DNA of 64,000 nucleotides, taken from an uncultured Alphaproteobacteria bacterium (GTDB lineage: Bacteria; Pseudomonadota; Alphaproteobacteria; Puniceispirillales; UBA1172). The DNA lies in contig OY288107.1 of the NCBI GenBank assembly GCA_958431225.1, positions 1,763,501-1,827,500 on the forward strand. The letters are read 5' to 3'. Position numbers and translations under genes: made by a program. Shown here piece after piece: positions 5,151 through 47,554 of the stretch (position 1 is its first letter; each line of letters begins with the position of its first letter). Below the pieces are notes generated by a model. That model had not been told where the DNA came from. It made no database searches and saw nothing but the letters and a program-made list of their open reading frames with translations.

Positions 5151-5190
5151 CGGCATTAGCAATGTGATTCTTGCTAATGCCGTTTTTTTA
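5151..5190 (+). terminator. Perfect 12-bp hairpin followed by seven T, in front of mod
   Basis: CGGCATTAGCAA (5151-5162) and TTGCTAATGCCG (5171-5182) pair perfectly around an 8-base loop and are followed by T7. This has the form of an intrinsic terminator. It sits only 28 bases before the mod GTG, so it either ends a short upstream transcript or acts as an attenuator of the R-M operon. Confidence 0.6.
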
Positions 5191-5218
5191 TTCATTTGGC
5201 TTTTATTGGGGCGGATTT

Positions 5219-7357
5219 GTGAAACTGAGCGATAATGAAATTAGGGACATCACCGGTCTTTTGGAGGAAGGCAAGCCGCTTCCTGACAAATATCGGTTTA
5301 TGCTGTTCGGGGATAATCGGGAGATTGAGCTGGTTTGGAATGGCAAATCGGGCGATGTTACGAATGTTGTTCTGCCGTTTCAGACCATTGAGCATGTTGA
5401 TGAGCCGCGCCCTGAAAAGGATGTTATGGCACAGCCGGAACTGTTTGATCTCGCTACCGGGCGGCAATTAAAGGGTTGGACGAATAAACTGATTTGGGGG
5501 GATAATAAATTTATCCTTTCCTCGTTGAAAAACGGCCCGCTTCGTGAGGAGATTGAGGCGAATGGCGGCATAAAACTCATCTACATAGACCCGCCCTTTG
5601 ATGTTGGCGCGGATTTTTCTATGGATGTGGAGATTGGTGGCGAGACGCTGGCGAAAGAACCTAATGTGTTAGAGGAGATTGCCTATAGAGATACTTGGGG
5701 GAAAGGGCAAGATTCATTTTTATCAATGATATTTGATCGCTTGGCCTTAATGAGAGATGTTCTTGCGTCGGATGGTGTTATTTTTGTCCACTGCGACTAC
5801 AGGCTATCATCAAATTTAAAGCTTATATTGGATGAGGTATTTGGACCAAAAAATTTTTTAAATGAAATTATTTGGAGTTATGGAGCTGGAGGTAGCCCTA
5901 AAGGCCATTTTCCTAGAAAACATGATACTGTTTATTTTTATCAAAAAAACGGAAAGACTCAAGGCATCAACACAAGCAGTAGCGTGATGCGCGTTCCTTA
6001 TGATGAGTCGACTTTATCCACGCATTACAAAAATACTGATGCGGATGGTCGTAGATATCGAGTTCAAACGGTAAAAGGGAAACAATACAAGACTTATGCA
6101 GATGAAGGTAAGTTGGTGACAGATGTTTGGGTGGATATAGGGGCGCAGAATGCAACCTCTCCTATATCTAAGGAAGCGACAGGATATCCCACACAAAAAC
6201 CGGAAAAATTGCTTGAGCGAATCATAAGCAGTTCTAGTGAATCCGGTGACATAGTCTGCGATTTCTTCGCTGGGTCAGGCACCACGGCGGCGGTAGCGGA
6301 AAAATTGGGGCGCAAATGGATTTGTTCTGACCTTGGTAAATTTGCCATTCATACCTCCCGAAAACGTCTCATCGGCGTTCAGCGCAAACTCAAAGAAGCG
6401 GATAAAAATTACCGCGCTTTTGAGGTTTTGAATCTTGGTAAATATGAACGCGAGCTTTTTGTTTCAGGGCTGGCGGAACTTGATAATACATCAACGCAAA
6501 AACTTGAAGATAACCGCGACCTGGCATTCACTTCGCTGATTTTACAAGCATATCAAGCAGAGGCAGTTGAGGGATTCCGCACTTTTCGCGGTAAGAAAAA
6601 CAACCGCATGATTGCCATCGGTCCGGTCAATATGCCGGTATCGCGCCTTTTTGCCGAACAGGTGGTCGCGGAATGTTTGGACAATAACATCACCAACATA
6701 GACCTACTCGCCTTTGAATTTGAAATGGGGCTTTTTCCAAGTATTCAGGATGAAGCATCAAGCAAAGGCGTTGATCTTGCCATGAAATACATACCCAAAG
6801 AGGTTTTTGACAAGCGCGCGGTAGACCAAGGCGAGGCGACATTCCACGATGTTGCCTATATTGAAGTCCGCGCCCATATTGATGGAAATAATGTGGTGAT
6901 TGAACTCACCAATTATTCGGTTTTCTACACGCAAGGCGCTCTCGCACGCACCGAAGCAGCGCTCAAAAACGGCAAGAGTGAAGTGGTTGTCGCAGGCGGT
7001 CAGGTTATCAAACTCAGCAAAGATAAAAACGGCACTTCCAAGCCTCGTGAGGTGCTGACAAAAAACTGGCATGACTGGGTGGATTATTGGTCAATTGATT
7101 TTGACTATGAATCCAAAAAAGAAATGATCCACGAACACGACCCAAAAACCGGGAAATATGTTGAAAAATGGACAGGCTCTTATATCTTTGAAAATGAATG
7201 GCAGTCGTTCAGGACAAGACGCGATAGATCAATTGAGCTGAAATCGGTTCCGTATGAATTCGCCGATGGACGCAAAAAAATCGCTATCAAAGTCGTGGAT
7301 ATTTTCGGCAACGACACCATGAAGGTGATTGACGTGACTATAGGAGGAAAAATCTAA
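5219..7357 (+). CDS. mod: Type III restriction-modification methyltransferase (Mod)
   Basis: 712 residues from the GTG at 5219, chosen because GGGGCGGA precedes it; an earlier ATG at 5171 lies inside the hairpin and is unlikely. DPPF (about residues 124-127) is the catalytic motif IV and FFAGSGTT (about 349-356) the S-adenosylmethionine motif I; this order is that of beta-class adenine N6-methyltransferases, as in type III Mod subunits. The variable stretch between them is the target recognition domain and is AT-richer than the flanks. Mod recognises the site, methylates one strand and is also needed for cleavage. It overlaps res by one base (TAATG). DPPF in place of DPPY is common. Confidence 0.92.
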   Translation: MKLSDNEIRDITGLLEEGKPLPDKYRFMLFGDNREIELVWNGKSGDVTNVVLPFQTIEHVDEPRPEKDVMAQPELFDLATGRQLKGWTNKLIWGDNKFILSSLKNGPLREEIEANGGIKLIYIDPPFDVGADFSMDVEIGGETLAKEPNVLEEIAYRDTWGKGQDSFLSMIFDRLALMRDVLASDGVIFVHCDYRLSSNLKLILDEVFGPKNFLNEIIWSYGAGGSPKGHFPRKHDTVYFYQKNGKTQGINTSSSVMRVPYDESTLSTHYKNTDADGRRYRVQTVKGKQYKTYADEGKLVTDVWVDIGAQNATSPISKEATGYPTQKPEKLLERIISSSSESGDIVCDFFAGSGTTAAVAEKLGRKWICSDLGKFAIHTSRKRLIGVQRKLKEADKNYRAFEVLNLGKYERELFVSGLAELDNTSTQKLEDNRDLAFTSLILQAYQAEAVEGFRTFRGKKNNRMIAIGPVNMPVSRLFAEQVVAECLDNNITNIDLLAFEFEMGLFPSIQDEASSKGVDLAMKYIPKEVFDKRAVDQGEATFHDVAYIEVRAHIDGNNVVIELTNYSVFYTQGALARTEAALKNGKSEVVVAGGQVIKLSKDKNGTSKPREVLTKNWHDWVDYWSIDFDYESKKEMIHEHDPKTGKYVEKWTGSYIFENEWQSFRTRRDRSIELKSVPYEFADGRKKIAIKVVDIFGNDTMKVIDVTIGGKI

Positions 7358-10074
7358 TGGCAATGCATAAAAATTTCCCAACTTCGCCTTATGAGATTCT
7401 GAAGCCAGAACTGCGCTGGTTTCCGGCTGATGAAACATTGCGCGAAACCGCATACGAAAACCTAATGCCGCCCCTAGTGCCGGAATTACGCAAACAAGTC
7501 TATCAGTGGCGCAATGACGGATATCCAAATATCAGCAATACTAGTCGGACTTTGCTAAATTGGTGGTTCAATACACCGCATCCAATCCAACATGCGGACG
7601 GGTTTATGGATGCGTTTAAGTATTATTTCGCCCAACGCGAGGCGGTGGAAACCATCATCTACATACATGAATGTGTAAAAGTGAAAGACAAATATGACCT
7701 CCTGCGCTTTGACAAAGGGGAAGCCGTATCAGCAAAAATGATTGAGGAAACTTGGCGGCGCTATGTTGTGAAAATGGCAACAGGAAGCGGGAAAACTAAG
7801 GTGATGAGCCTTTTGCTCGCTTGGTCGTATTTTCATAAAAAATACGAGGAAGATTCAGATTTGGCGAAAAATTTCCTCATTATAGCACCAAATATCATCG
7901 TCCTTGACCGGCTGAGAAGTGATTTTGATGGATTGAAAATTTTCTTGCACGACGACCCCATCCTGCCCGATAATGGCATTGATGAACGGAACTGGAAAAC
8001 CGATTTTCAACTCACGCTACATATTCAGGATGAGGTAGGGAGGCCGAATCCAAGTGGTAATATCTTTCTCACTAACATTCACCGCGTTTATGATGATAAA
8101 ACGCTAGAAGCAACGCCCGATGATGAAAACTCAATGGATTATTACCTTGGACCAAAACCCAAAGGGAATACCACGGATTCAGGCGTTGATCTCGGGCGCA
8201 TTGTCAGGGATATTGATGAATTGGTCGTCATCAATGACGAAGCGCATCACATTCACGATAGTCAATTAGCTTGGTTCAAATCAATCAACGATATTCATAA
8301 CAAGCTGAAACAAAAAGGCGCACAACTAGCACTGCAAGTCGATGTCACGGCAACGCCCAAACACAATAAAGGCGCGATATTTGTTCAGACCGTCTCGGAC
8401 TATCCGCTTATTGAAGCAATCACGCAAAATGTCGTCAAATGCCCCGTGCTACCAGATAAACCAAGCCGAACAAAACTTGAGGAAAGGCAGAGTTCGGTTT
8501 ATAGTGAAAAATATAGCGATTATATCAATCTCGGCGTCACCGAATGGCGCAAAGTCTATCCTGAGCATAAAAAATTGGGGCAGAAAGCGGTGCTGTTTAT
8601 TATGACCGATGACACCAAGAACTGTGATGAAGTGGCAGAATATCTGGAAAAAACCTTCCCTGAATTGAATGGTGCGGTTTTGACTATCCACACCAATAAA
8701 AAAGGGGAAATCAGCGATAACCCTGCGTCTAAAGAGTCAAAAAAAGAACTGGAAGAATTGAGAAAACAAGCAAACGAAATTGATAGTTGGGGTAGTAAGT
8801 ACAAAGCCATCGTTTCGGTTCTCATGCTAAAAGAAGGATGGGATGTGCGGAATGTTACCACTATTGTTGGGCTACGCCCTTACTCGTCCAAGTCGAATAT
8901 CCTCCCCGAACAAACGCTTGGGCGCGGGTTGCGGCGCATGTATCCCGAACGTGACACAGAAGAACGTGTCAGCGTTATTGGAACAGACGCTTTTATGGAT
9001 TTTGTTGAATCACTCCAAACCGAAGGGATTGAATTTGATCAAGAGCCAATGGGAGAAGGCGCACCACCTATTATATCGCTAGTTATTGAAGTCGATAATG
9101 ATGGTGGCGATAAAGATATTGATGCATTGGATATTGAAATCCCTATCCTCTCACCGCGCGCGATTCGTGAATATGAGAATCTGAATGCGCTTGATGTCAA
9201 TCAATTGGAATTTCATGTGCAAGGATATCAACAATATTCCGAAGAAGAACAGCGGGTAATGGTGTTTCGGTATATTACAAGTGAAGACATGAGCCATACC
9301 ACAAACCTAGAAGGGGCAATGGCAAGCGATTATCGTAGTGTCATTGGCTTTTTCGCACAAAACATCCTTAAAGAACTCCGAATGCCTACATATTATGATG
9401 TGCTTTATCCTAAAATTCAGGAATTTATTCAGGATAAATTATTCGGAAAATCCGTTAACCTAGATGACCGCAATACGCTCAGGAATTTGAGCGAGCCACC
9501 TGCTCTCGAAACCATATTTAAGACGTTCAAATTTGCGGTCAATGCTCTGATAATTAAGGATCCGGGCAGCGCAGAAATTCGTGGTAGCATAAAAGTCAAA
9601 GACACGCGCCCCTTTACGGTTAAAAATCAGGAATATATCATACCCAAAAAGTCCGTATTTAACAAAATTGTTGGCGATTATGGCTTGGAGCTTAGGTTTG
9701 CACAGTTTTTAGAGCGCGTTCCTGATGTGATCTCATTCACCAAGAATTACACGGCAATAAAATTCAAAATTGATTACGTTACTGCCGCCGGATACATTGC
9801 AAATTATTTCCCAGATTTTCTAGTAAAGGTTGCAGATAACAAAATCTTTATCGTAGAAACAAAAGGTCGTGAGGAGATAGATGCCCCACTTAAGATAAAA
9901 AGATTGCGCCAATGGTGCGCCGATGTGAACGCATTGCAAGACGATGTGGAGTTTGATTTTGTCTATGTTGATAACAAAAATTTCGACAAACTAACAGGCG
10001 CAGACGGCAAGTCCAAAGATAGACTCGCAACATTCTCTGACCTTGTGTCGCACTTCACCGAGTATAAGGGATGA
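7357..10074 (+). CDS. res: Type III restriction endonuclease subunit (Res)
   Basis: 905 residues. Superfamily II helicase motifs are in order: Walker A ATGSGKTK (about 141-148), DEAH (about 293-296) and VDVTATP shortly after; the second RecA-like domain has EGWDVRNV and LGRGLRRMYP. Near the C-terminus FPDFLV and, further on, IVETKGRE (about 818-838) form the PD-(D/E)xK nuclease. Res translocates or slides from the Mod-bound site and cuts DNA beside it. It is preceded by a strong SD (TAGGAGGAAA, inside mod) and is translationally coupled. The gene appears complete with all key residues, so the system is probably active. Confidence 0.92.
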   Translation: MAMHKNFPTSPYEILKPELRWFPADETLRETAYENLMPPLVPELRKQVYQWRNDGYPNISNTSRTLLNWWFNTPHPIQHADGFMDAFKYYFAQREAVETIIYIHECVKVKDKYDLLRFDKGEAVSAKMIEETWRRYVVKMATGSGKTKVMSLLLAWSYFHKKYEEDSDLAKNFLIIAPNIIVLDRLRSDFDGLKIFLHDDPILPDNGIDERNWKTDFQLTLHIQDEVGRPNPSGNIFLTNIHRVYDDKTLEATPDDENSMDYYLGPKPKGNTTDSGVDLGRIVRDIDELVVINDEAHHIHDSQLAWFKSINDIHNKLKQKGAQLALQVDVTATPKHNKGAIFVQTVSDYPLIEAITQNVVKCPVLPDKPSRTKLEERQSSVYSEKYSDYINLGVTEWRKVYPEHKKLGQKAVLFIMTDDTKNCDEVAEYLEKTFPELNGAVLTIHTNKKGEISDNPASKESKKELEELRKQANEIDSWGSKYKAIVSVLMLKEGWDVRNVTTIVGLRPYSSKSNILPEQTLGRGLRRMYPERDTEERVSVIGTDAFMDFVESLQTEGIEFDQEPMGEGAPPIISLVIEVDNDGGDKDIDALDIEIPILSPRAIREYENLNALDVNQLEFHVQGYQQYSEEEQRVMVFRYITSEDMSHTTNLEGAMASDYRSVIGFFAQNILKELRMPTYYDVLYPKIQEFIQDKLFGKSVNLDDRNTLRNLSEPPALETIFKTFKFAVNALIIKDPGSAEIRGSIKVKDTRPFTVKNQEYIIPKKSVFNKIVGDYGLELRFAQFLERVPDVISFTKNYTAIKFKIDYVTAAGYIANYFPDFLVKVADNKIFIVETKGREEIDAPLKIKRLRQWCADVNALQDDVEFDFVYVDNKNFDKLTGADGKSKDRLATFSDLVSHFTEYKG

Positions 10075-12898: not shown

Positions 12899-13150
12899 AT
12901 GTTTGATGTTGATGTTGAATTTCGGATTGGTGGTAGGAAGGTTCATCCTAACCAAATCGCCAATGAATGGGAAAAGGCTATAATGAAGGAATGGCGCGAT
13001 GATTTTGTGAGAAAACTCCGCGGTATTCGTGACCTTAAAACTGGGGAAAGACCTAAAATCATTGTTAAAGGGCGCTCGCTGTCGAATTTAACAATTGAGG
13101 TTGAAGGGTCTAAAAACCTCATTGATGAAGTTAATCGCCGGGTGGGTTAA
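12899..13150 (+). CDS. 83-residue protein upstream of the DUF2779 nuclease, unknown
   Basis: Preceded by a strong ribosome binding site (AAGAGGAGATAGAC) and ending two bases before the next ATG, so the two genes are surely one operon. The protein has an N-terminal strand-rich part (DVEFRIGGRKV), a Trp-containing helix (ANEWEKAIMKEWRDD) and a C-terminal basic strand (PKIIVKGRS). No known family recognised. The small size and tight linkage suggest a partner or regulator of the nuclease. Confidence 0.7.
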   Translation: MFDVDVEFRIGGRKVHPNQIANEWEKAIMKEWRDDFVRKLRGIRDLKTGERPKIIVKGRSLSNLTIEVEGSKNLIDEVNRRVG

Positions 13151-13151
13151 A

Positions 13152-14639
13152 ATGACAAAGCTCACGATATCCAAATCCCAGTATATAAAAGGTCTACAAT
13201 GCCCAAAGGCTTTGTGGTTGAGTCGTCACAGCAAAGACCTAGCGTCAGAGGTTGCACAAACTAAACAAGCATTATTTGACACAGGTCGAGATATTGGCGA
13301 TGCAGCTAGGGGATATTTTGCTAATGGCGTTTTAGTTGCTAATGAGTATTGGGAAACAGAAGGCGCAGTCGAAGCTACTGAACAATATACCCAAAACGGA
13401 GAGGGTGTAATATTTGAAGCCGCAGCCATTCACCCAAGCAATGGATGCCATGCGCGGATTGATATCTTAAAGCGCGTTGAAAATAGTAACCAATGGGATT
13501 TGATTGAAGTAAAGGGTTCCACTAAATTAAAGGACCCTCACATTGATGATGTGTCGTTTCAGTATCACGTATTTAATGGCGCTGGGTATGAAATTCGAAA
13601 ATGTTACGTGATGCTTGTGAATAGTGACTACATTCGCAATGGTAAAATCGACCCACAAAAACTCTTCAAACTTGAAGAAATAACAAACAAAGTGCTTGCT
13701 AAGCAAAGTGAAGTTGATACGGCGACAAGGCAACTCAATTCCATTTTGGTAGATCAGACCGAACCAAAAGAGTTGATTGGGGTGAAATGCTCTACGCCTT
13801 TTGAATGTGATTACAAAAATTATTGCTGGGTGGATGTGCCTGATTACTCGGTTTATGATGTGTTTTCCAAATCAAAAGTTGATGAGATAGCCAGCCAGCA
13901 TGGTTTTGATATTAAGGCATTGCCTGATCAAATAAAACCAACTGGAACAAAAGCCATTGATGTACAGAGTTATATTGAAGGAGAAACGCATGTAGATGCT
14001 CCGGCTATATCCGATTTTCTGCGCCAAATTAGCTATCCAATCTATTATTTAGATTATGAGACGATCGTACCAGCTATTCCAATGTTTGATGGCACAAAGC
14101 CATATCAGCAGATCCCTTTTCAATTCTCTGTCCATATCCAGCACACACCTAACGGCGATCTAACGCATCACGAGTTCTTACATAAAGATCGAAGCGACCC
14201 GCGTAGAGCATTTGCTGAAAAACTGGTGGATCTTTGTGGCGATACAGGAACAGTGCTGGTTTATAATCAGTCCCTTGAAAAGACGCGGAATAAGGAGCTA
14301 GCTCAAGATTTTCCAGAATATGCCAGTGCTATTCAGGCTATTAACGCACGGATAGTGGATTTATTAGAGCCGTTTAGAAAGCGCTGGTTATATCATCCAG
14401 ATCAGCGTAGCTCCGCGTCTATTAAAGCAGTTTTGCCATGTTTTTCCGATCTCTCATACGAAAATTTAGGAATTGGCAGTGGGGAAGAAGCCATGTTGCA
14501 ATATAAAAATTTCATCGCGGGCAATATCCCGGAATACGAACTAGAGGATTTATGGAAAAATCTGAGCGCTTACTGCGAGCAAGATACGCGTGCGATGGCA
14601 ATCTTGTTAGATGCTTTAAAGCAGCAAGCACATGAATAA
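13152..14639 (+). CDS. DUF2779 protein: Cas4-like nuclease fused to a DEDD-type exonuclease-like domain
   Basis: 495 residues from the ATG at 13152. It opens with SKSQYIKGLQCPKALW, the DUF2779 hallmark, whose Cys17 with three Cys near residues 213-225 (GVKCSTPFECDYKNYCW) can hold an iron-sulfur cluster as in Cas4/AddB-type nucleases. ARIDIL and, about 20 residues later, LIEVKG supply the Asp and ExK of a PD-(D/E)xK site. The C-terminal half has YYLDYETI (about 300), VYNQSL and CEQDTRAMA, the Asp/Glu pattern of RNase T/DnaQ-type exonucleases. DUF2779 proteins are often found in genomic islands; the role is unknown, but two nuclease-like halves make DNA or RNA processing likely. Confidence 0.8.
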   Translation: MTKLTISKSQYIKGLQCPKALWLSRHSKDLASEVAQTKQALFDTGRDIGDAARGYFANGVLVANEYWETEGAVEATEQYTQNGEGVIFEAAAIHPSNGCHARIDILKRVENSNQWDLIEVKGSTKLKDPHIDDVSFQYHVFNGAGYEIRKCYVMLVNSDYIRNGKIDPQKLFKLEEITNKVLAKQSEVDTATRQLNSILVDQTEPKELIGVKCSTPFECDYKNYCWVDVPDYSVYDVFSKSKVDEIASQHGFDIKALPDQIKPTGTKAIDVQSYIEGETHVDAPAISDFLRQISYPIYYLDYETIVPAIPMFDGTKPYQQIPFQFSVHIQHTPNGDLTHHEFLHKDRSDPRRAFAEKLVDLCGDTGTVLVYNQSLEKTRNKELAQDFPEYASAIQAINARIVDLLEPFRKRWLYHPDQRSSASIKAVLPCFSDLSYENLGIGSGEEAMLQYKNFIAGNIPEYELEDLWKNLSAYCEQDTRAMAILLDALKQQAHE

Positions 14640-14846: not shown

Positions 14847-15599
14847 ATGGAAAACTCACCAAAACTGTGGAAATCCGCCTTACCTGTCAAAAACACGAAC
14901 CAGCATAAATACTGCCATGGTTTGGCGGTGGTTTTTGGGGCTCCTGCTTTGACTGGGGCTACGCGGTTGGTGGCGGAGGCGGCGGCTCGGGTGGGGGCTG
15001 GGTTGGTTGAGGTTGTTGCTGATGCGGGCACTGCGCCGATTTATCGTGCCTCTTTGCCGCCGCATATTCTGGTGCGCGAGGGCGCGGCTTCGCCTAAGCA
15101 ATCGGCTTTGCTTTATGGCTCTGGCGGGCTTTCCGTGCGTCCTGATTTTTGCGCCCAAGTGCCGGTGGTGCTTGATGCTGATGCGCTTTATGATTTGCCC
15201 GCGGAGCTGCCGCCGCATTACGTGCTGACGCCGCACGAAGGCGAATTCGCCCGCGCCTTCCCCAAACTAAAAGGCACCCGCGCCGATAAAGCCACCGCCG
15301 CCGCCAAAACCATCGGCGCGCATATCGTCCTCAAAGGCGCATCAACCATCATCGCCGCGCCCGATGGCAACATCATCACCAACCAACACGCCTCGCCGCA
15401 TTTGGCAACCGCAGGGAGCGGCGACGTGCTGGCAGGAATGATCCTCGGGCTGCTCGCACAAGGCATGGACGCACACCTCGCGAGCGCCGCCGCAGTGTGG
15501 ATACATGGCGACGTCAGCATCAGCATAGGTCGCGGACTCGTGGCTAGCGACATCCCGGCGCAGATTCCTGCTAGTCTAAAAAAGATATTTGGGGAGTAA
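14847..15599 (+). CDS. nnrD: ADP-dependent NAD(P)H-hydrate dehydratase
   Basis: 250 residues, a stand-alone version of the YjeF C-terminal domain (ribokinase fold). HKYCHGLAVVFG (about residues 20-31) is the first strand region, VVLDADAL and LTPHEGEFAR (about 124-133) line the substrate site, VLKGAST follows, and TAGSGDVLAG (about 188-197) is the nucleotide-binding and catalytic Asp motif. The enzyme repairs NADHX/NADPHX back to NADH/NADPH with ADP. The epimerase half (nnrE) is not fused here. This is a housekeeping gene, GC-richer than the neighbouring defence genes, with DUF4065 just downstream. Confidence 0.9.
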   Translation: MENSPKLWKSALPVKNTNQHKYCHGLAVVFGAPALTGATRLVAEAAARVGAGLVEVVADAGTAPIYRASLPPHILVREGAASPKQSALLYGSGGLSVRPDFCAQVPVVLDADALYDLPAELPPHYVLTPHEGEFARAFPKLKGTRADKATAAAKTIGAHIVLKGASTIIAAPDGNIITNQHASPHLATAGSGDVLAGMILGLLAQGMDAHLASAAAVWIHGDVSISIGRGLVASDIPAQIPASLKKIFGE

Positions 15600-15603
15600 A
15601 GAT

Positions 15604-16062
15604 ATGATAGTTATTTTTGATGTTGCATCTTACATTTTGCAGAAGCGTGGGGCGATGACGGCAATGAAATTGCAAAAGCTCGTCTATTATTCGCAGTGCT
15701 GGTCGCTGGTTTGGGACGAAGAACCTTTGTTCAAAGCCAGAATTGAGGCATGGGAAAATGGCCCAATCGCCCCAACACTTTACGATGCTCATAAGGGCGA
15801 ATTCAAGGTTGCGTTCGGCTCAATGCAAGGCGACCCCGCAAAATTGACCAAAGACCAAAAAGAAACCATTGACGGAGTGCTTGATTTTTACGGGGAAAAA
15901 TCAGCGCAGTGGTTGAGCGACCTAACCCACCTTGAAGCCCCGTGGAGGCAAACCCGAGCCCGCGCTGGTGTCAACGCAGGGGAAAGGTGTCACGAGGAAA
16001 TCACGCTTGCTGATATGCACGAATATTACTCTGGATTGGGTGAGGAAGCTGATATGGTTTAG
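15604..16062 (+). CDS. DUF4065/Panacea-domain protein (SocA-like antitoxin)
   Basis: 152 residues from the ATG at 15604, which has GGGGAGTAAAG before it. TAMKLQKLVYYSQCWSL (about residues 19-35) and EAWENGPIAPTLYD (about 48-61) are the signature blocks of DUF4065. Such proteins are antitoxins for many unrelated toxins (PanA) or proteolytic adaptors such as SocA, which delivers SocB to ClpXP. No small toxin gene lies next to it: upstream is nnrD and downstream a helicase after a 216-base gap. It may be an orphan antitoxin or serve a partner elsewhere. Confidence 0.8.
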   Translation: MIVIFDVASYILQKRGAMTAMKLQKLVYYSQCWSLVWDEEPLFKARIEAWENGPIAPTLYDAHKGEFKVAFGSMQGDPAKLTKDQKETIDGVLDFYGEKSAQWLSDLTHLEAPWRQTRARAGVNAGERCHEEITLADMHEYYSGLGEEADMV

Positions 16063-16278: not shown

Positions 16279-18840
16279 ATGACTAGCAAATCAAATGGTG
16301 AGGATTCTGAAATGGACTTTTCAACATTAGGATCTATCACTCAAAAAACATTGCCAACGCATCCGGTAGAAATTTTTGAAAGTTTGCCAAGTTTACCAAA
16401 TACTCCGAATGACCTTTGGAGGGGGCAAGCAGAGGCACTTGAAAATTGGCATCAATGTCGAACAAAGAGTGATGTTCTTATGGCTCTAAATACAGGTGCT
16501 GGAAAAACAATTGTCGGTCTACTCATAGCTCAAAGTTTGGTCAATGAAGGGCATAAAAATGTTCTTTATATTTGCTCAACAATCGATCTTGTGAAACAAA
16601 CTTCTGAAGAAGCAACTCGCATAGGTCTGGAGCATACAGTAAGAGTAAAACAAGAATTTAACAACACTCGATTTGAGTTAGAACAAGGGTTTTGCATCAC
16701 AAACTATCATGCTCTGTTTAATGGCCATAGTAGCCTCAGAAAAAACCATTTTCCACAAGCTATTGTCTTTGATGACGCTCATGTTGCTGAAAGTATTTTA
16801 AGAGGTTCCTACACAATTAGCATTGATAGTGCAGAAAAAACCGAGCTATTCAATGAAATTTCTCAATTATTCTATTCGCACTTTGATGAATTAGGGATAG
16901 CGGAGCAGTTTAAAGACAGTATAAGCAAGGAACGCCATGTATCAGCTTTTGTTGCGCCTAGAGGGCTACAAAACAATAAATCTCAACTTTTGCAAGTATT
17001 TCATAAATATGATCTTTCGCAGGATAAAGACTTAACTTATCCATTTGAGCACCTTAAGGGTCACATCGAATCTTGTGCGGCTATTTTTAGACATGGTGTT
17101 TTTGAGTTGTCTCCACCCTTTTTGCCGTCTCGTGCGATGGAAATTTTTCATGACCAAATAAAGAGAGTCTATCTATCTGCTACATTGAAATCAAAAACAG
17201 AATTTATTAGGGCTTTCGGGAGAATGCCAGAAGAAACGATTGAACCTTTAAATGATGCGGGGAATGGAGAAAGACTTATCATAAGAAGCATGGAGATGGA
17301 AGGAAATTTTTCGACAAATTTTGTCAAAGATTTATCCGCTTCTAAAAAAGTGGTGATTGCTGTTCCAAATTATTTAGAATCTGAAAAATGGTCTAAGGTG
17401 GCTAAAGTGCCTAACCGAGATAATTTCTCAGAAAGATTAGATAGATTCAGAGCATCTGAATCTGGTGCTTTTGTTTTGGTTTCAAGGGTTGATGGCATAG
17501 ACCTGCCACACGACACTTGCAGATTAATGGTAATTGAAGATTTGCCAAGAGGAACATCATTGCTTGAGCGTTATCAATGGGACGATCTAAAGATGGAAAA
17601 TGTGCATGCCTCAAGGATAGCCAATAGGTTAGCACAATTATTCGGGCGCATTAATAGAGGTAGAAATGATTACGGCGTGTTTTTGCTAGAAGGGCATGGA
17701 TTGAATATATGGTTGGGCAAAGATCGTAATGTGGCTCTGTTGCCACCTTTACTGCAAAAACAAATTCTTTTAGGGAAAGTCGTCCAAGAAGGAAGGGTTA
17801 AGACTAGTGAGAACGTTGTGGGCGCTATTGAAGCCGTTTTATCACGAAGTGAAAGCTGGCTTAATTATTATAAAAGTAACATTAAGTTGGGTGAATTAGA
17901 TCAAGAACAAGTTAATAGAGTTGCGGATTCTGAAGCGTCTCTAGAAGAGGCGGCTATTTCTGAAGCTAAATATGCAGCTCATATATGGGATAAAGAATAT
18001 GCAAAGGCGCGTATAGAAATTGAGAAGTCGTCTGTTAAAATAGCCCCCATAGACACACGACTTTCTGGTTGGCATAGTGTTTGGTTGGGAGCTGTGTATG
18101 ATCTAGAAAATGACAATGAAAGTGCTGAAAAAGCATATAGCATTGCGAGAGAACGTCTTGGTAGAGTGATTCATTTACCCAAAAAAAGCATAAAAAGTGA
18201 TGTTCTTGGGAAAGTGGAGCAAAGGAATAATTTTTATGCATCTGTAAAAAATTATTTTTGGGATGCTGGGGGAGACAAATCCGGGATAGATAAATCTAGA
18301 CAAGCAATCAATCAGGCTAGGGTGTTATTAGATGGAATAAAAACTCCTAGCGCAAATCAAGCGGAAGAATCTGTTCGTTTTTTGGGACAAATTTTGGGAT
18401 TTCAGTCCACAAGACCCGATAATGATTTGCATAAAGGCCCTGATGTTCTTTGGGTTAATGATGATACGGGCGAAGCTTTGGCTTTTGAGTTGAAAACAAA
18501 TAAGCAAATTCCGACAACATACAGTAAAAGTGATATTGGCCAAGGGCATAACCATATTGCTTGGTTCAAGGAACAAGAAGAATACGACAAACACACCTTG
18601 ATTGGACTTGTGTATGTAGGACCGGAAATAGGAAGGGTGGGAGATCAAGCTAGTCAATCAGATACTATGTATTTCACTGATGTAGATAAAATTTATTCAG
18701 TAATGGGGGAGGTGACGGCACTACTATCCGATCTTTTACAATTGCTACCAGTGCAAAGAAGCGCTGAGATGCAATCAAAAAGCCAAGAAGAAAAATGGGA
18801 AATGCGTTCCATTTTTTCTAGGTTAATACCTAGTCAGTAA
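16279..18840 (+). CDS. DEAD-like helicase with C-terminal PD-(D/E)xK-like nuclease domain
   Basis: 853 residues from the ATG at 16279, preferred over a GTG at 16213 because AAAGGG precedes it. LNTGAGKTIVGL (about residues 69-80) is Walker A and VFDDAH (about 162-167) a variant DEAD box. The second RecA-like domain has VYLSATL and LAQLFGRINRG. About residue 720 onwards, GPDVLW and then AFELKTNK make a GPD...ExK motif of restriction-like nucleases. A long helical region with a TPR-like stretch lies between. It is AT-rich and alone, so it is probably a single-gene defence factor with helicase and nuclease parts. I cannot assign it to a named system. Confidence 0.7.
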   Translation: MTSKSNGEDSEMDFSTLGSITQKTLPTHPVEIFESLPSLPNTPNDLWRGQAEALENWHQCRTKSDVLMALNTGAGKTIVGLLIAQSLVNEGHKNVLYICSTIDLVKQTSEEATRIGLEHTVRVKQEFNNTRFELEQGFCITNYHALFNGHSSLRKNHFPQAIVFDDAHVAESILRGSYTISIDSAEKTELFNEISQLFYSHFDELGIAEQFKDSISKERHVSAFVAPRGLQNNKSQLLQVFHKYDLSQDKDLTYPFEHLKGHIESCAAIFRHGVFELSPPFLPSRAMEIFHDQIKRVYLSATLKSKTEFIRAFGRMPEETIEPLNDAGNGERLIIRSMEMEGNFSTNFVKDLSASKKVVIAVPNYLESEKWSKVAKVPNRDNFSERLDRFRASESGAFVLVSRVDGIDLPHDTCRLMVIEDLPRGTSLLERYQWDDLKMENVHASRIANRLAQLFGRINRGRNDYGVFLLEGHGLNIWLGKDRNVALLPPLLQKQILLGKVVQEGRVKTSENVVGAIEAVLSRSESWLNYYKSNIKLGELDQEQVNRVADSEASLEEAAISEAKYAAHIWDKEYAKARIEIEKSSVKIAPIDTRLSGWHSVWLGAVYDLENDNESAEKAYSIARERLGRVIHLPKKSIKSDVLGKVEQRNNFYASVKNYFWDAGGDKSGIDKSRQAINQARVLLDGIKTPSANQAEESVRFLGQILGFQSTRPDNDLHKGPDVLWVNDDTGEALAFELKTNKQIPTTYSKSDIGQGHNHIAWFKEQEEYDKHTLIGLVYVGPEIGRVGDQASQSDTMYFTDVDKIYSVMGEVTALLSDLLQLLPVQRSAEMQSKSQEEKWEMRSIFSRLIPSQ

Positions 18841-18935: not shown

Positions 18936-20246
18936 ATGAACAAAAAAACCCAAACACTCCACCTAAACCAACTAAACTACCGCCTATTGATAGCGGTTGT
19001 TTTCACGCTACTGGTGCCGACGCTATACAACACTTTCAGAATATACCTAATCGGCGACATCCCTAGCGAATGGGGTTTCAACATCGCATCGCAAATAGCA
19101 TGGCTAAATATCATCTACGAGGTGCTACAAGAAGCCATCATCCTACCGCTATTTTTCGTGCTAGGCCCGCTAGTCGCGCATACTCGGTTTTTTCGCCAAA
19201 AAATCATGCACGGGCTGATTACCATAACCGCGCTATACACGCTCATTGCGCTGTTTATATGGGTGTCCGCCGGTCATTTGGTGCATTTTTTGAATCAGTC
19301 GCCGGGGCTGATTGCGGAAACAATCCAATATATTCGCCTCGAAACCATAGCCATTCCCTTGCGCGTAATAACCGATATTGCCCTCATTGCCTTAATTGCG
19401 CTGTCGGCAAAATCTAGGATATATTTATTCTTATTATTACAATTACTGGTGCGCGTGGTTTTTGATTATGCCTTTATCAATGAAGGCGCGCTAGGTTGGG
19501 GCGTCATCGGGATTGCTTATTCCACCATCTGCATCAACGTGGTGACGGCGCTAGCAGGCATATTCATCCTATTTCAAACCTTGCGCGCGCCCGACCAAAC
19601 GCAATCCGCGCCATCCGAGAATATCAGCTGGCGCAAGTGGCTCCGAGTGTCGGTGCTGTCCGGCGCGGAGAGTGGCGTGCGGAATATTGCTTTTGTCATT
19701 ATGGTGTTGAAAATGGCTAATGAAATTGGCGAACAAGGCACGTTGTGGATTACTAATGGCTTCATCTGGGGCTGGCTTTTGCTGCCGATTTTGGCGTTGG
19801 GAACATTGATTAAACAAGATGTTAGCACGCATGGAGGTGTGATTGGCGACCGTTTTAAGGGCTATTTTTCACTGTCGCTGGTGGTTTGTTTAGTATGGAT
19901 TCTCACCATCCCAATTTGGGGCTGGTTTATTCAAAACATAATGGGCATTGATGATTACAATGCCATTGTTTCCCTAGCCTTGCTGTTCCTGCCGTTCTAT
20001 ATCATTTTCGCGTTCAACAACATCCTAGACAGCTATTTCTACGGCATGGGACGCACAGATTTGATGCTGTATCAAAGCCTCGTTGTGAATTGCGGGTATT
20101 ATGTCATCGCGTTCATATTATACGTGCAGGGCGTATTCGTGCCGAGCCTACAAGCAATCGCACTACTTTTCGGCTTTGGCATCGTGCTAGATATGCTGAC
20201 AACTATGGCGTTATTTCGCTTCGTGAGGTATCCGTTGAAGAGGTGA
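18936..20246 (+). CDS. MATE-family efflux transporter
   Basis: 436 residues from the ATG at 18936; an upstream frame from 18861 is open but reads as non-protein. Hydrophobicity gives about twelve membrane segments, arranged as two six-helix bundles with the family features TLYNTFRIYLIGD in helix 1 and FNNILDSYFYGMGRTDLM before the last helices. MATE proteins export drugs or metabolites using sodium or proton gradients. The last 93 bases of the gene recur at 22.3 and 31.8 kb as fragments that bracket defence genes, so the 3' end of this gene seems to be an integration or recombination hotspot; the gene itself is intact. Confidence 0.85.
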   Translation: MNKKTQTLHLNQLNYRLLIAVVFTLLVPTLYNTFRIYLIGDIPSEWGFNIASQIAWLNIIYEVLQEAIILPLFFVLGPLVAHTRFFRQKIMHGLITITALYTLIALFIWVSAGHLVHFLNQSPGLIAETIQYIRLETIAIPLRVITDIALIALIALSAKSRIYLFLLLQLLVRVVFDYAFINEGALGWGVIGIAYSTICINVVTALAGIFILFQTLRAPDQTQSAPSENISWRKWLRVSVLSGAESGVRNIAFVIMVLKMANEIGEQGTLWITNGFIWGWLLLPILALGTLIKQDVSTHGGVIGDRFKGYFSLSLVVCLVWILTIPIWGWFIQNIMGIDDYNAIVSLALLFLPFYIIFAFNNILDSYFYGMGRTDLMLYQSLVVNCGYYVIAFILYVQGVFVPSLQAIALLFGFGIVLDMLTTMALFRFVRYPLKR

Positions 20247-20488: not shown

Positions 20489-22216
20489 ATGAATGCCAAA
20501 GACAGCTATCTTTTAGAATTTGTTCGCGGCGTCTCGCAGTTCGTCATTCCGATTTACCAGCGGAAATACTCTTGGGAGCGTATTCAGTGCGAACAGCTTT
20601 GGAACGATGTGTTGCGAGCTGGCAAAGCGGATACCGCTGGTGGTCATTTCATTGGTTCGATTGTCTATGTAGCTGATGATGAAACGCATGATACCCCTTG
20701 GCTGGTTATTGACGGACAACAGCGATTGACAACACTGACGCTACTGATTGTTGCGCTGTCCCGCGCCTTGGGCGATCAGGAGCCAATGAACGGCTTTTCG
20801 AAGAAAAAACTGGAGAATGAATACCTTATCAATGCCTCCAAATCTGGCGACAAGCACAGAAAACTGGTCTTGTCCGAGACGGATAGCGATACCCTTTTTG
20901 CGGTGATCGACGACAGGGATTTGCCGGATAATTGCTCCCGCCGAATTAAAGATAACTTCTTGTATTTCCAAGAGTGCATAAAAAGTGAGGCGGACGACCT
21001 GCAAACGGTATGTCGCGGATTGGCAAAATTGCTTGTTGTTTATGTCGCCCTATCGCGGAAAGACGACAACCCGCAGCTTATCTTCGAAAGCATGAACTCA
21101 ACCGGGCGAGAGTTGAGCCAAGCCGACCTCATCCGCAACTTCATTTTGATGGGATTAGAGACGGATATTCAAACGCAGCTCTATAACCAGCACTGGCACC
21201 CGATGGAGCAGGCGTTTGGGCAGAAATTTTACGACAGTCATTTTGATCGTTTTATGCGGCATTACCTGACCGTGAAGACAGGCGATATCCCGAAGGTTAA
21301 TGACGTCTATACGGCTTTCAAGACGTATGCCCGATCTGAAAGCATTGCTACATTGGGCATCGAGGCACTGGTCAAGGATATTCGCCAGTATTCAAAGTTT
21401 TACTGCTCAATGGCCTTGGGCAAAGAGGCAAACGCTAAACTGAAAGCGGCCTTCCACGATTTGAGCGAACTTCGTGTCGATGTTGCTTATCCGCTCTTGC
21501 TAGAGTTGTATGCAGACTTCGATAGCGACGAACTGAATCATGATGACTTTCTCGTCGCCGTCCGCTTGATTGAATCATACGTTTTCCGACGTGCGGTGTG
21601 TTCGATACCCACAAATTCGCTGAACAAGACTTTCGCGACGTTTGGTCGAGCCTTGAAGAAGGATCGCTATCTGGAAAGCATCATGGCTCATTTCTTGCTG
21701 ATGCAGACCTATCGCAGCTTCCCATCGGATGAAGATTTTAGCGAACATATCAAGGTTCGGGATCTCTACAACTTCCGTAGCCGTAGATATTGGCTGCTCC
21801 GGTTCGAAAACTTTGGTCGCAAAGAACGAGTGCCAGTCGATGAATATACCATTGAACACATCATGCCGCAAAATGAAGACCTCACCCCTGCATGGAAGCA
21901 AGCCATTGGCGATGATTGGAAGCGTGTACACGAGAAATATCTGCACACACTCGGTAACCTGACACTGACCGGCTACAACTCCGAATACAGCAACCGTCCA
22001 TTCAAGGAAAAAAGAGATATGGAGGGCGGGTTCGGGCAGAGTCCCCTTAAGGTCAATGCCGGGTTGGGTGAGTTGGAAGAATGGACAGAAGCGACTATCG
22101 TTGAACGCGCAGACAACTTGGCTAAAAGGGCCTGCGATGTTTGGCGGTTCCCCGATATCGACGCGGACGTATTGGATGCCTATCGTTCTGAAGAGGCTAA
22201 TGAGGGCGACATATGA
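20489..22216 (+). CDS. DUF262/DUF1524 protein, GmrSD-like type IV restriction enzyme
   Basis: 575 residues. Near the N-terminus, FVIPIYQRKYSWE (about 18-30) and VIDGQQRLTTLT (about 72-83) are the DUF262 nucleotide-binding motifs. In the last quarter YTIEHIMPQN (about 452-461) and LGNLTLTGYNSEYSN form the DUF1524 His-Asn nuclease site. The fused GmrS-GmrD arrangement cuts foreign DNA, often with modified cytosines, using NTP. GGGGAGGC precedes the ATG. It is a single-gene defence unit lying exactly between two copies of the MATE 3' end, which suggests insertion as one module. All key motifs are intact. Confidence 0.88.
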   Translation: MNAKDSYLLEFVRGVSQFVIPIYQRKYSWERIQCEQLWNDVLRAGKADTAGGHFIGSIVYVADDETHDTPWLVIDGQQRLTTLTLLIVALSRALGDQEPMNGFSKKKLENEYLINASKSGDKHRKLVLSETDSDTLFAVIDDRDLPDNCSRRIKDNFLYFQECIKSEADDLQTVCRGLAKLLVVYVALSRKDDNPQLIFESMNSTGRELSQADLIRNFILMGLETDIQTQLYNQHWHPMEQAFGQKFYDSHFDRFMRHYLTVKTGDIPKVNDVYTAFKTYARSESIATLGIEALVKDIRQYSKFYCSMALGKEANAKLKAAFHDLSELRVDVAYPLLLELYADFDSDELNHDDFLVAVRLIESYVFRRAVCSIPTNSLNKTFATFGRALKKDRYLESIMAHFLLMQTYRSFPSDEDFSEHIKVRDLYNFRSRRYWLLRFENFGRKERVPVDEYTIEHIMPQNEDLTPAWKQAIGDDWKRVHEKYLHTLGNLTLTGYNSEYSNRPFKEKRDMEGGFGQSPLKVNAGLGELEEWTEATIVERADNLAKRACDVWRFPDIDADVLDAYRSEEANEGDI

Positions 22217-22244
22217 GCCAGTTTTCATTTCTCCAGGGCGAATT

Positions 22245-22397
22245 TGCGGTTATTATGTCAACGCATTCATATTGTACGTGCAGGGCATATTCGTGCCGAG
22301 ATTACAGGCAATAGCACTGCTTTTCGGCTTTGGTATTGTGCTAGATATGCTGACGATGATTGCACTATTTCGCCTCGTTAAATGCCCGTTGAAATAG
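22245..22397 (+). pseudogene. Repeat copy B: relic of the MATE 3' end
   Basis: The frame encodes 50 residues (CGYYVNAFILYVQG ... LFRLVKCPLK, stop) that match the last 50 residues of the intact MATE protein with few changes. There is no start, and the match begins just after the GmrSD-like stop. The copy is more diverged in DNA than copies A and C and lacks the palindrome. Confidence 0.8.
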
Positions 22398-22524: not shown

Positions 22525-23250
22525 TTAGTATTGCCAGTTTTCATGAGCAAGAGGGAGGCTGTTTAGCTCGTCTCTAAATGTGCGCCATTGCGGCATGATG
22601 CGATCCATATGATCTACGAAGTTGTCATTGTGTGTGCGTTCAAGAAAATGAACCATTTCATGGACAACGATGTATTCAAGGCAATTAGTTGGTTTTTTGA
22701 TAAGCTCTAAGTTGAGCCATATCCTCTTGTGCGCAGGATTGCAACTTCCCCATTTTGTCTTCATCCTCTTAATCCCAAAAGAGCCCACCTGCAGTCCAGA
22801 TTTGATTTCCCACCTTCTAACAATGTCGGGGAGAATTCTTTTCATTTCCTTGCGATACCAGTCAGTCAATAGCTTTTCGCGTTCTTCGATTCCTGTGTCC
22901 TCATTGATATTCAAAACCAGCTTTTTTTTATTTTTAATTTCAACGAAGGGACGTTTTTCAGTAGGGGTAATATCTAATAAATATCTGCGCCCAAGGTAGT
23001 AATGACTTTCCCCAGTGACTAACTCTCGTACACTCTGTCTCGGTTGATCCTGAAAAAGTCTTATCTGGCGTTTGATCCAGCTGAATTTTGATATAATTGC
23101 CAGCCTTACGGCTTCATCATCGATAATTTCTGGAACCGCGATCCTAACCCATCCATCAGGTGGGTATACCGCCAAGTGAAGGTTTTTAATTTTCTTCCGA
23201 ATAACCGTCACGGGCAATTCATTTACAATAATTGTGTTCTCACCGGTATT
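22525..23250 (-). CDS. YgjP-like zinc metallopeptidase
   Basis: About 241 residues. VVHEMVHFLERTHN (about residues 197-210) has the HExxH zinc site and the later His of YgjP/SprT-like proteins, and KTKWGSCNP is the family block before it. An ATG at 23301 would give 258 residues with a 62-base overlap into hsdR; I prefer the GTG at 23250, which has GAGG at the right distance and overlaps hsdR by 11 bases. The gene is the last of the type I R-M operon. YgjP-like genes often ride with type I systems; a role in turnover or control of restriction is possible but unproven. Confidence 0.8.
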   Translation of the reverse strand, partial: NTGENTIIVNELPVTVIRKKIKNLHLAVYPPDGWVRIAVPEIIDDEAVRLAIISKFSWIKRQIRLFQDQPRQSVRELVTGESHYYLGRRYLLDITPTEKRPFVEIKNKKKLVLNINEDTGIEEREKLLTDWYRKEMKRILPDIVRRWEIKSGLQVGSFGIKRMKTKWGSCNPAHKRIWLNLELIKKPTNCLEYIVVHEMVHFLERTHNDNFVDHMDRIMPQWRTFRDELNSLPLAHENWQY

Positions 23251-26200
23251 CACTTTGATGCCTCGCCAGTTCAAGTATTTGCTTCGCGTCATAACCATCA
23301 TAGCCAGTAGTTTTCAGAACACCATCAATAGCCCGTTCTATCTCAAGCTCTTTGAAACTATGGCCACACCAGTCATCTTTTTTAGTTTCCCTAATTATTC
23401 TATCTATTGCGAGAGCAAGATTTTCATCTTCTCCTAAATTATCATAGAGCGCTCTTTTTGCATCTGAATTTAATGATTTTGGATAAGAACTATTCGTTCC
23501 CGTGCGCAATACCTTGCCTGACAGATCAATAATTTTTTCCAAGTAATCCTTATATTCGAGTGCCTGCTCCTTGCGTTCCCGAATGCGCGCATCCAGCAGT
23601 TCAGACATTCTTTCATAGTATTTTGGATTGACTGGTTGCTTTTCAATGACAACGCTTCGAATGTTGTTTTCAATAGTTTCTGCAACAGCATCTTCGTTAT
23701 TGCGGATTCCCTTTGGCAACTCTTTGATTGCATCTTCTCCACGTTCAACAATAAGCTGGATAAGGCTAAGGTCATCAAAGGCTGATATTTTTTGGCTTTC
23801 TTCCGCTTGAATATATGAATCAATAAGATGGCGCATTGCTGGCTCGTAGAGCTTTGTATCGATATAGTCGCCGCTTGCCAGTTTGACTTCCATTCGCACA
23901 GTTTCATAACGCTGAGTCTCAGCTTTTATAGCTTGAATTTCTTTTTGGGAATATCCTGCTTCAGCCATTTCATTAGCCAACGCAGCATAAGCACGAATAA
24001 AAGAACTACTTGCCTTGTATAAGGCGAGCCTACGTGGCTCGTTGACTTTCAGAACGTCCTTGTCAGATGGATCTTCTGCACAGAAATATCGAATGTAAGC
24101 AATGGTGTCTTTTGGTGGAGCGACATTCTCACAAAGAGCTTTTATTGTTTCGCGTGTTTCATCCAAGTGCTCTTTGGCTTTGGTTAAACGGTTTTTGAGC
24201 AATCCGATAACGTCCTCTTTATCGTATTTATCAAATGCGCCAGTGGTATAAGTGGTATAGTCTTCAATTGAGCTTTCCAAACTTTTGAACAGATCCTTGT
24301 AGTCAATGACGTATCCATATTCTTTATTTTCACCATGCAGGCGGTTAATGCGACAAATAGCCTGAAAAAGGCCATGGTCTTGCATCTTTTTATCGATGTA
24401 GAGATATGTTGCAGGCGGTGCATCAAAGCCTGTCAGCAGTTTATCAACGACGATAAGCAACCGCATCTGACCGGGTTCGTTAACAAATTTTTCTTTCACT
24501 TTCTTTTCAAATTCTCCCGCACGTTTGACTGCTTGCTCTTCAGATTGACCAAAAAAATCGGCAAGCATTTTTTGGTAAATATTATGTTTGTGAATTTTTT
24601 CCGTGGAACCTTCGCCGCTTTCCTCATCTTTGATGCCTTGAGGCGAAGGCTTATATGAGGTAATTATGGCACATTTGCGAGCAAGGTCAGTCTTATCAAA
24701 GAGTTCATAGAATTTACAAGCATTATAAATACTATCTGAAACCAGCATGGCATTACCGCCCTCATTAGCAAGGTGTTCTTTTGTTTCCATGTCGAGCAGA
24801 ATATCGCTTACAATTTTTTCCAGTCGCGACTGAGAACTAAAGACTTTTTTCATGGTTCCCCATTTTTGCTTCAACTGTGCCCGAGCGGAGTCATTGAGAC
24901 CTCTTGTTTTTGCGTCAAACCATAAATCTATCTTATCCTGAGATGTTATGTTCTGGTCAATGTCGCGTGCTTCATATCGCAAGTCCAGAATGGTACCATC
25001 TTTAACGGCTTCATCAAATTTGTACGTGTGGATGTAAGGGCCAAAGATCTCAAGACTACTCTGCTTGTCAGCCTTGAGTAGCGGCGTTCCTGTGAAGCCG
25101 ATGAATAAAGCGTTGGGCAGGATCTTTTTCATAGCAGCATGAAGCTTGCCTGATTGTGTGCGATGACACTCATCTATGAAAACATAAATATCACCCTTTG
25201 CCTTGAAGTCGGATTTCATATTTTTTTCAATATTTGCTAGGAAGTTATCGATGTCTTTATCTGATGAATCATCACTATCTGAGCCGCCAAATTTATGAAT
25301 AAGAGAGCAAATCAACGATTCATGGGTGTTATTAAGGGTATTAATAAGATTAGCGGCACTGGTGGTTCGATGAATATCCTCATCAACGCCTTTATATACT
25401 TTTTCAATCTGATCATCCAGCTCGCTTCGGTCAGTAATAATGAGTACGCGGGATTTTTTTAAGTTCTCACGTATCCATTTTGTTAGCCACACCATAGTCA
25501 AGCTTTTACCGGAACCTTGTGTGTGCCAGATGATGCCGCCTTCACGGCGATAGATGTGCTTCTGCGCTTCTTTAACGCCGAAATATTGGTTTGGTCGGCA
25601 GATCTTTTTTACACCAGCATCAAAGACGATGAAATCATGGATCAACTCAAGCAATCGTTTTTTCTCACATATAAGGGACAAGTGGCGATCTAGTATATAA
25701 TCGCCAATGCCACCCTCTTCCTTCCATTCCAGATAATATCTCTCGCCAGTTTCAATGGTTCCATAGCGCAATCCTTGCGTGTCATTGCCAGCCATCACAA
25801 GCTGCATGGTGGTGAAGAACGAACCGATAAATTCCTTTCTCTGGTTAAGTAGGTTTTGCCGTATGCCTTCGGTCAGTCCGATGGTGGAGCGCTTTAACTC
25901 AATTACGCCGATGGCTATGCCATTTATGTAAAGAATGATATCCGGGCGTTTGGTTTGTCTTCCCTTTACTGTGACTTCTTCGGCGATGGCAAAGTGATTT
26001 TTATTGGGGTTCTCCCAATCAATGAGCCAAACGGTTTTGTTCTTTTCGCCAGCATTTTCTTTAACCTTAACGCCGTAACGTAGTAGGTGATAAACATCCT
26101 TATTGGCATCATAGAGATTGCGTCCATCACCCAGCGCTGCCGCTTGTTCCAGTTCACGCGAGGCGCGTTCAATTAGTTTGCCGCTGTAACCTCGTTTTTT

Positions 26201-26350
26201 CAGAAATGCTTTAAGCAGGTCCGTCTCAATATTTTTATTATCAGCATAGCCTTCCCGGTTATCCAGATATTCGTATCCAAGCTGATCTTTGAATAGATCG
26301 ATGATACGGTTTTGCGTGACGCGCTCTTTGGCTCCAACTTTACTCATCAT
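23240..26350 (-). CDS. hsdR: Type I restriction enzyme R subunit
   Basis: 1036 residues from the ATG at 26350, which overlaps the dinD end; an earlier frame start at 26467 lies within dinD and is less likely. KRPDIILY and, about 15 residues later, VIELKR (about 135-155) form the PD-(D/E)xK nuclease; [11 protein letters not shown] (about 278-288) is Walker [10 protein letters not shown] (about 395) the DEAD-box variant and FTGTPL motif III. HsdR pumps DNA through the bound enzyme and cuts when translocation stalls. With hsdM and hsdS upstream it completes the operon. The gene is long but within the family range and appears intact. Confidence 0.92.
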
Positions 26351-27191
26351 TGTCATCCAAACTATCCGGTGATTTAAGTGCCTTTTTCTCTTGCGATGTA
26401 ATGCGGCGCTCAAGTTTTTTGATGTCTTCTTCAGGTAGTAGGGTTTCCGGGCGGATGCCTCGCTCAATTAAAGTTTTACGAACGGCTTGATGGCTAGTGA
26501 CATGCTCGCTTGATATCTGCGTCTCAGTGGTCATATTATTTTTACGCGCATTGTGGATTGTGATTTCAGTGGCAAAGTCTTTTGCTTTAAGGATGATTGT
26601 GGGCGCAAAATCAGCCAATGGGCGGTTATCAGGTACTTGCCACTGGGCTTTCATTTGCTGTGTGCTTTTGCCAAATAAAGCTTGGTCGCCTTTGCTACGA
26701 ATGATGCCAAAATTGCGATCTTGTCCGGTTTGCTCGTATATGACTTCGGAGAGTTCTTTTTCTGTTTGGGTGAGTTTCTTACGAGCAGAGATGCGTTCTT
26801 GCTCAAGAATGCGTTGCTCGATTAGCTCAGCGCGGCGGGTTTGCATGGCAAAATAGGTCTGCGCAAAGGCAATTTGCTCTTTGCGCGGGTCGCCGTTCTG
26901 CGCAATCAGGTAGCAGGCATAGCGGGTGAGCATGACATCATCAATCTCGCGCTTACCACCAGAGCCAAGATCGACCATTTTGCTGACGTCAGCAAAATGG
27001 TCTGAAACCTCGTGCCCGCTTAATTCACAGGCAACTTTAGCTTTGGATATCACCAGAGCAAAATTTCGCCATTGGTCATAACTGAGAAGGTGCTGGAGGT
27101 CACGGGCAAGCCAATACTCAATGCCGCTTTCGGTCTTTTGAGCATGAAGCTCAAAATTGCCTGTTAAGGTTGTGATTAGCTCTTTTTTCAT
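26340..27191 (-). CDS. dinD: DinD-like BRO-N domain protein in a type I R-M operon
   Basis: 283 residues. [18 protein letters not shown] (about 27-44), [20 protein letters not shown] (about 76-95) and IAQNGDPRK are hallmarks of DinD, whose E. coli member inhibits RecA filaments and is SOS-induced. The frame overlaps TIR by four bases and hsdR by eleven, so it is an integral operon gene. dinD-like genes often occur inside type I R-M operons; it may modulate repair or restriction after damage. Codons for residues about 63-73 form a perfect 30-bp palindrome that is also found three times between genes in this window. Confidence 0.88.
26973..27002. repeat. Perfect 30-bp palindrome inside dinD
   Basis: GACCATTTTGCTGAC is followed by its exact reverse complement. 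The same core, CCATTTTGCTGACG plus complement, occurs at 20265-20292, 31915-31942 and 33525-33552 between genes. In dinD it encodes [10 protein letters not shown], a segment of normal length for the family, so it is not an insertion that lengthened the protein. Confidence 0.75.
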
Positions 27192-27907
27192 CCTAAGGCT
27201 GCCGTGATTTTAGATTGATCTATTTTGAAGCCAAGTTGCCCGAGGCGTTGCACAAGTCTTTTTGTAACTTCTTGCACATGCTCATTGAATTCGTGGTACT
27301 GAATACCGTTGATATCAGACGGTATCTCCAATGCGCCCTTTTTAAGGATAAACGTTCTTTCTCGCCCCAGTCGTCCCATCACCATACCCATTTCTAAGAT
27401 GACATTTTGACGAGCACGAGGTTGCTTATCAGGCTCCTGTTTTGATTTAGGATAACCAAAATCGTCCGGTGTCAGTAGAACAATACCCAGTGCGGTTTCC
27501 TTGTCTATGTTTTTCTCCAAGGCTTCTATTAGGGTTTGGCTACTAGCGTCTGTGGATTGTATAATAAATGGCTCAAGCCCAAGCCTTCTTATGATCAGTT
27601 CTAGTTGTTCAGTAGCATCATCGTCATGGCCATGAACAATAAAAATTTTCTTGTCCGTAAGATTTTCAACGGGAGGCGTTGCTGAAGCAGATTCATCAAG
27701 AAGCGGAAGAATTTTATCCTTCGCCGCCTGCACATTCTTACCTTGGAATTGTAACGTTCCCTTTGCCGGCCACCAATTTAATACCTCACCAGTGCGAGCC
27801 TTAAAGCTATGGCAGTCATTTGCCTTTTTGTATTGCCAACTTCCTACGTAGCCAGCTGTTTTGACCAACTCCTCGAGTTGTCCAATGTCTCCGAAAAATA
27901 GAGTCAT
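27188..27907 (-). CDS. TIR-like nucleotide-binding protein embedded in the type I R-M operon
   Basis: 239 residues. After a small N-terminal domain (about 1-75), [16 protein letters not shown] (about 85-100) starts a TIR-like domain of the predicted nucleotide-binding type also used in CBASS and pyrimidine-cyclase defence effectors. [10 protein letters not shown] and [16 protein letters not shown] (about 168-183) follow; the Glu in ILEMG is the likely NADase residue. It overlaps dinD by four bases and starts one base after hsdS ends. TIR enzymes destroy NAD+ and abort infection; here restriction subunits might trigger it. The fold is clear; activity is inferred. Confidence 0.82.
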
Positions 27908-27908
27908 G

Positions 27909-34623: not shown

Positions 34624-34659
34624 GTCATGAGGCGAACAGCACAATCAGGAGTTAAGCCC

Positions 34660-44165: not shown

Positions 44166-44168
44166 TAA

Positions 44169-47499: not shown

Positions 47500-47554
47500 G
47501 CGTAACTACAACCGCCATCCCGGACGGCGAACAGCACAATCAGGAGCTAAACCC

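Follow-up and report, generated by a model that had tools for sequence, protein, structure and literature searches.

A divergent Hna-family helicase-nuclease among defence genes of an uncultured alphaproteobacterium

The locus and its neighbourhood

The window analysed here is a 64,000-nucleotide stretch of contig OY288107.1 from an uncultured Alphaproteobacteria bacterium. Within it, a helicase-nuclease gene is surrounded by restriction systems and other defence genes:

5171-10074: N6_N4_Mtase methyltransferase and, directly after it, a Res-type helicase-nuclease whose C-terminus is TnsA/RE_endonuc-like
12899-14639: DUF2779 protein; Cas4-like nuclease and RNase H-like matches, both weak
15589-16062, + strand: Panacea (SocA-like) gene, upstream of the Hna-family gene
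16312-18840, + strand: helicase-nuclease gene of the Hna family (PDC-S28), 842 aa from the favoured start at 16312; the ORF is open from the ATG at 16279
20489-22216: GmrSD-type gene
23240-31708: R, S and M genes of a type I restriction system; between R and S lie a TIR-domain gene (PDC-S35) and a BRO-N gene (PDC-S13)
34627-35256: first DUF6088-like protein, beside an AbiEii toxin gene at 35213-36199
43167-46817: AAA ATPase adjoining a subtilisin-like protease
47492-48154: second DUF6088-like protein

As originally predicted, the helicase-nuclease is encoded by a single AT-rich ORF, which counts 853 aa from the ATG at 16279 and runs uninterrupted on the + strand to a stop ending at 18840 (GC content 0.385-0.396, compared with ~0.45 for the whole window). 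The true start is more likely at 16312, giving 842 aa, because close homologues align from the methionine at residue 12 and the N-terminal MDF of the window protein matches the MVDF of S. meliloti Hna. A GAGG stretch lies upstream of this position. Since the gene is intact and conserved across 91 other homologues, a chance ORF or motif can be excluded on sequence grounds.

The gene stands alone in a single-gene organisation, again in line with the original prediction. We considered the Panacea gene as a partner antitoxin and set it aside: the two genes share a strand, an AT-rich gap of 249 nt lies between its end and the favoured start, and no such annotated neighbour occurs in the relatives L003-L006. 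Promoter scans gave results at chance level.

Among the surrounding genes, those at 5171-10074 are a predicted type III-like restriction pair, and the TIR and BRO-N genes inside the type I system are candidate defence genes; a second type I-like system is also present in the window. Pairings of an AAA ATPase with a subtilisin-like protease, as at 43167-46817, are common in mobile or defence regions. The GmrSD-type gene is flanked by a 150-nt direct repeat (20090-20239 and 22244-22393, 84% identical) that corresponds to the 3′ end of a MATE-like gene, as if it had been inserted along with a duplicated end of this neighbour. The two DUF6088-like proteins are 75% identical to each other, and no AbiEii toxin gene adjoins the second among the listed ORFs of at least 150 aa.

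Enrichment in defence islands, which had been proposed as a check, is suggested for relatives of the same branch. Their 90 neighbour proteins matched 64 PADLOC models, whereas 90 control proteins matched 5 (cut-off 1e-20). This comparison is supportive only, as it counts models rather than loci, draws its control regions from other genomes and includes several matches to generic families (mads, SspH).

The gene was absent from all 60 of the nearest relatives sampled, which gave weak motif-level matches only, and, of 299 genomes sampled across the phylum, 5 carry a family member, one of them being the window's own genome. Many plasmids and some viral or proviral contigs carry members as well. 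Given this distribution, the gene looks mobile. A scan of genome contigs with a single sequence found no relative, and an alignment-based scan found 545. One homologue lies on the Lactococcus lactis plasmid pMRC01 (L009, 3953-6487); it is 41% identical to S. meliloti Hna, with a conserved dimer loop. pMRC01 is described as a phage-resistance plasmid, and this homologue may account for that resistance.

Domains, fold and assignment to the Hna family

We located the following features in the window protein, numbering residues from the favoured start:

16492-16509, + strand: Walker A/motif I, TGAGKT, residues 61-66 (homologue alignment)
16771-16782, + strand: motif II, DDAH, residues 154-157 (homologue alignment)
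17485-17670, + strand: SF2 motifs V and VI, R392-V-DGIDLP and Q442-LFGR-INRG-xxD453 (alignment)
17746-18393, + strand: nearly all-helical region leading from helicase to nuclease, residues ~479-694 (AlphaFold2 model)
18439-18495, + strand: PD-(D/E)XK nuclease active site, P710, D711, E726 and K728, aligned with Hna P712, D713, E727 and K729

The N-terminal SF2 helicase that had been predicted is evident from Pfam matches to ResIII/DEAD (4e-16, 5e-11) and Helicase_C_2 (4.5e-7). It forms a HEL1/HEL2 module in which the Q-motif, Walker A, DDAH and motif VI are all present, the Q-motif residue Q39 lying upstream of Walker A with the same number in the window protein and in Hna. The GPD...ELK motif noted near the C-terminus is the genuine nuclease active site: P710, D711, E726 and K728 align with the catalytic residues of a solved and tested homologue. 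Between the two, the region called TPR-like is indeed nearly all helical in the AlphaFold2 model, but no TPR family matched it, so the term is descriptive only.

The original prediction could fit this domain order to no named defence system, a statement that does not hold. With PADLOC, the window protein is a full-length match to PDC-S28 (model PDLC04987, 1046 bits) and scores 486 bits with a second PDC-S28 model. S. meliloti Hna (the hna gene product of S. meliloti 1021 pSymA) matches the same pair of models at 400 and 1020 bits, the latter over its full length, which makes PDC-S28 and Hna a single family. DefenseFinder likewise tracks Hna. A phmmer search of the PDB retrieved 10uj, S. meliloti Hna, with an E-value of 1.1e-44 over residues 27-765 of the window protein. 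NCBIfam holds no model for the family, the best weak match being to the ATPase stretch of dnd_restrict_1, and PHROG 16128, whose function PHROG has not assigned, matches mainly the helicase part.

Structure prediction, also proposed at the outset, pointed the same way. The AlphaFold2 model, built from an alignment of 59 sequences, has a pLDDT of 90.6 and a pTM of 0.89, and its top three Foldseek matches in the PDB are the Hna monomer and both chains of the Hna dimer (3.3e-40, 8.2e-31 and 2.8e-17), followed by DinG at 4.8e-13. VIA-align gave a Z of 36.4 with the Hna monomer over 756 residues (next family, Z 18); the accompanying rmsd of 16 A suggests that the domains are placed differently in the model. 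With an Hna dimer chain, Z was 26.9 and rmsd 3.4 A over 556 residues. The modelled fold, HEL1 included, is close to that of Hna.

Family, fold and conserved catalytic residues are established for the window protein. It very probably belongs to the Hna family as a divergent member and is, by homology, a stand-alone phage-defence protein, although a fold match cannot demonstrate activity.

Conserved catalysis and a divergent dimer loop

Hna (helicase-nuclease abortive infection) was described by Sather et al. (2023) as a one-gene abortive-infection system. Hna of S. meliloti, the source of PDB 10UJ and 9YKJ, was characterised by Hooper et al. 2026 (PMC13381803); the published work comprises genetics, biochemistry and cryo-EM structures, with function treated in PMC13381803 and PMC12445080, and places Hna in ~2% of genomes (PMC13381803). 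Mutation of P712, D713, E727 or K729 kills or impairs the nuclease, T30A/D31A/P34A breaks the autoinhibitory dimer, R36A/Q39A breaks ATP hydrolysis, and phage SSB serves as the trigger (PMC13381803).

From S. meliloti Hna we infer, for the window gene, a defence function together with exonuclease activity, control by ATP, an abortive outcome and an SSB trigger. Most likely, the protein defends by abortive infection, acting as an ssDNA exonuclease that ATP restrains and a phage factor, for example SSB, triggers. The SF2 ATPase (DinG/XPD-like) module would bind ATP and ssDNA and hold the C-terminal PD-(D/E)XK nuclease in check. A phage factor (phage SSB for S. meliloti Hna) would release the nuclease, which would digest ssDNA 3′-5′, and the cell would die or stop ahead of phage release.

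The catalytic residues are conserved across an alignment of 92 sequences. In Hna numbering, D713, E727 and Q39 are invariant (92/92), K729 is present in 91 and P712 in 87; the window protein carries all of them (P710, D711, E726, K728 and Q39 in its own numbering). Identity to S. meliloti Hna is ~21%, and the window protein falls in a separate, mostly alphaproteobacterial branch, as judged from a quick, midpoint-rooted tree with long branches, from which we took only that the window and S. meliloti branches are separate. The closest relative of the window protein, at 67-68% identity, comes from a Rhodospirillales MAG, and to our knowledge no member of this branch has been tested experimentally.

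The residues of the dimer loop and the ATP-site residue R36 follow a different pattern. Hna T30, D31, P34 and R36 correspond to P, N, D and W in the window protein, the matching of T30/D31 being alignment-dependent (a one-residue indel) and that of P34/R36 anchored by the neighbouring L35 and Q39. In the window branch (35 sequences), R36 is W and P34 is D or E without exception. A third, broad branch of 40 sequences always has D at P34 and Y, W, F or H at R36. R36 is kept only in the 10 sequences of the S. meliloti branch, most of which also have P34, T/S at position 30 and D/E at position 31. These positions come from mutants of S. meliloti Hna and are not a published criterion of family membership. 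The loop is thus conserved in just one of three main branches, though the published mechanism terms it highly conserved (PMC13381803).

Because its contact residues are not conserved, the exact autoinhibitory dimer is doubtful in the window branch, and the published dimer mechanism should not be transferred to the window protein without a test. We tentatively raise the possibility that this branch is a functionally distinct Hna subtype, whose nuclease would be restrained and triggered unlike that of the ATP-induced, SSB-sensitive S. meliloti dimer. Such a protein would keep its nuclease and might, for example, rely on a different dimer interface, a different phage protein, or DNA structures in place of SSB. 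The restriction of the loop residues and R36 to the S. meliloti branch favours a different restraint, as does the expectation of the Hna authors that orthologues differ in recognition (PMC13381803). However, the overall fold including HEL1 matches Hna closely, Q39 and every motor motif are retained, loop contacts can drift while an interface persists, and the indel leaves T30/D31 dependent on the alignment; on balance, we regard a changed restraint and trigger as conceivable but somewhat improbable. With the loop conserved in one branch of three, orthologues like the window protein are well suited to testing how widely the SSB-triggered, ATP-restrained model applies. Apart from these points, the window gene is an unremarkable representative of a known defence family, one whose candidate label, PDC-S28, is now tied to the tested system Hna.

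Comparison with known systems

DinG, ExoDinG and XPD share the SF2 core fold with the window protein (Z ~16-18), aligning over the helicase core only at 13-15% identity. As DinG and XPD are the next-best folds after Hna, one might read the gene as a housekeeping DNA repair enzyme of this type with no role in defence. We consider this very unlikely: Hna is far ahead of both in the fold ranking, the protein ends in a PD-(D/E)XK domain, and the gene sits among defence genes, is missing from each of the 60 sampled relatives and is sporadic across phyla. ExoDinG, moreover, has its exonuclease domain at the N-terminus, preceding the DinG helicase, whereas the nuclease of the window protein is a C-terminal PD-(D/E)XK.

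The ResIII match and the several restriction genes within the window might suggest a restriction subunit, either type III Res or type I R, working with a nearby methyltransferase. This is scarcely credible: the PADLOC REase_I model scores just 13 bits, no PADLOC REase_III model reached E 0.1, the ResIII match is to the generic ATPase domain only, neither a Mod nor any other methyltransferase adjoins the gene, and the relatives L003-L006 stand alone with no conserved methyltransferase partner.

Hachiman (HamAB) has the same helicase-plus-nuclease defence logic but consists of two proteins, and its HamB model gives only 15.7 bits on the window protein.

The Hna family, to which we assign the gene, offers the closest comparison. 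S. meliloti Hna (pSymA; PDB 10UJ, 9YHN, 9YKJ) and the window protein are alike in domain order, fold, SF2 motifs, nuclease catalytic residues, single-gene organisation, the PDC-S28 models that they match and length (845 and 842 aa, respectively). They differ in sequence, at ~21% identity and on separate branches, and in the dimer-loop residues T30/D31/P34 and R36, which the window protein does not keep. From PADLOC PDC-S28 (PDLC04987), a candidate label now seen to include Hna, we noted no difference. The window gene is not a new system; it is a distant new member of Hna, an already described one-gene defence family.
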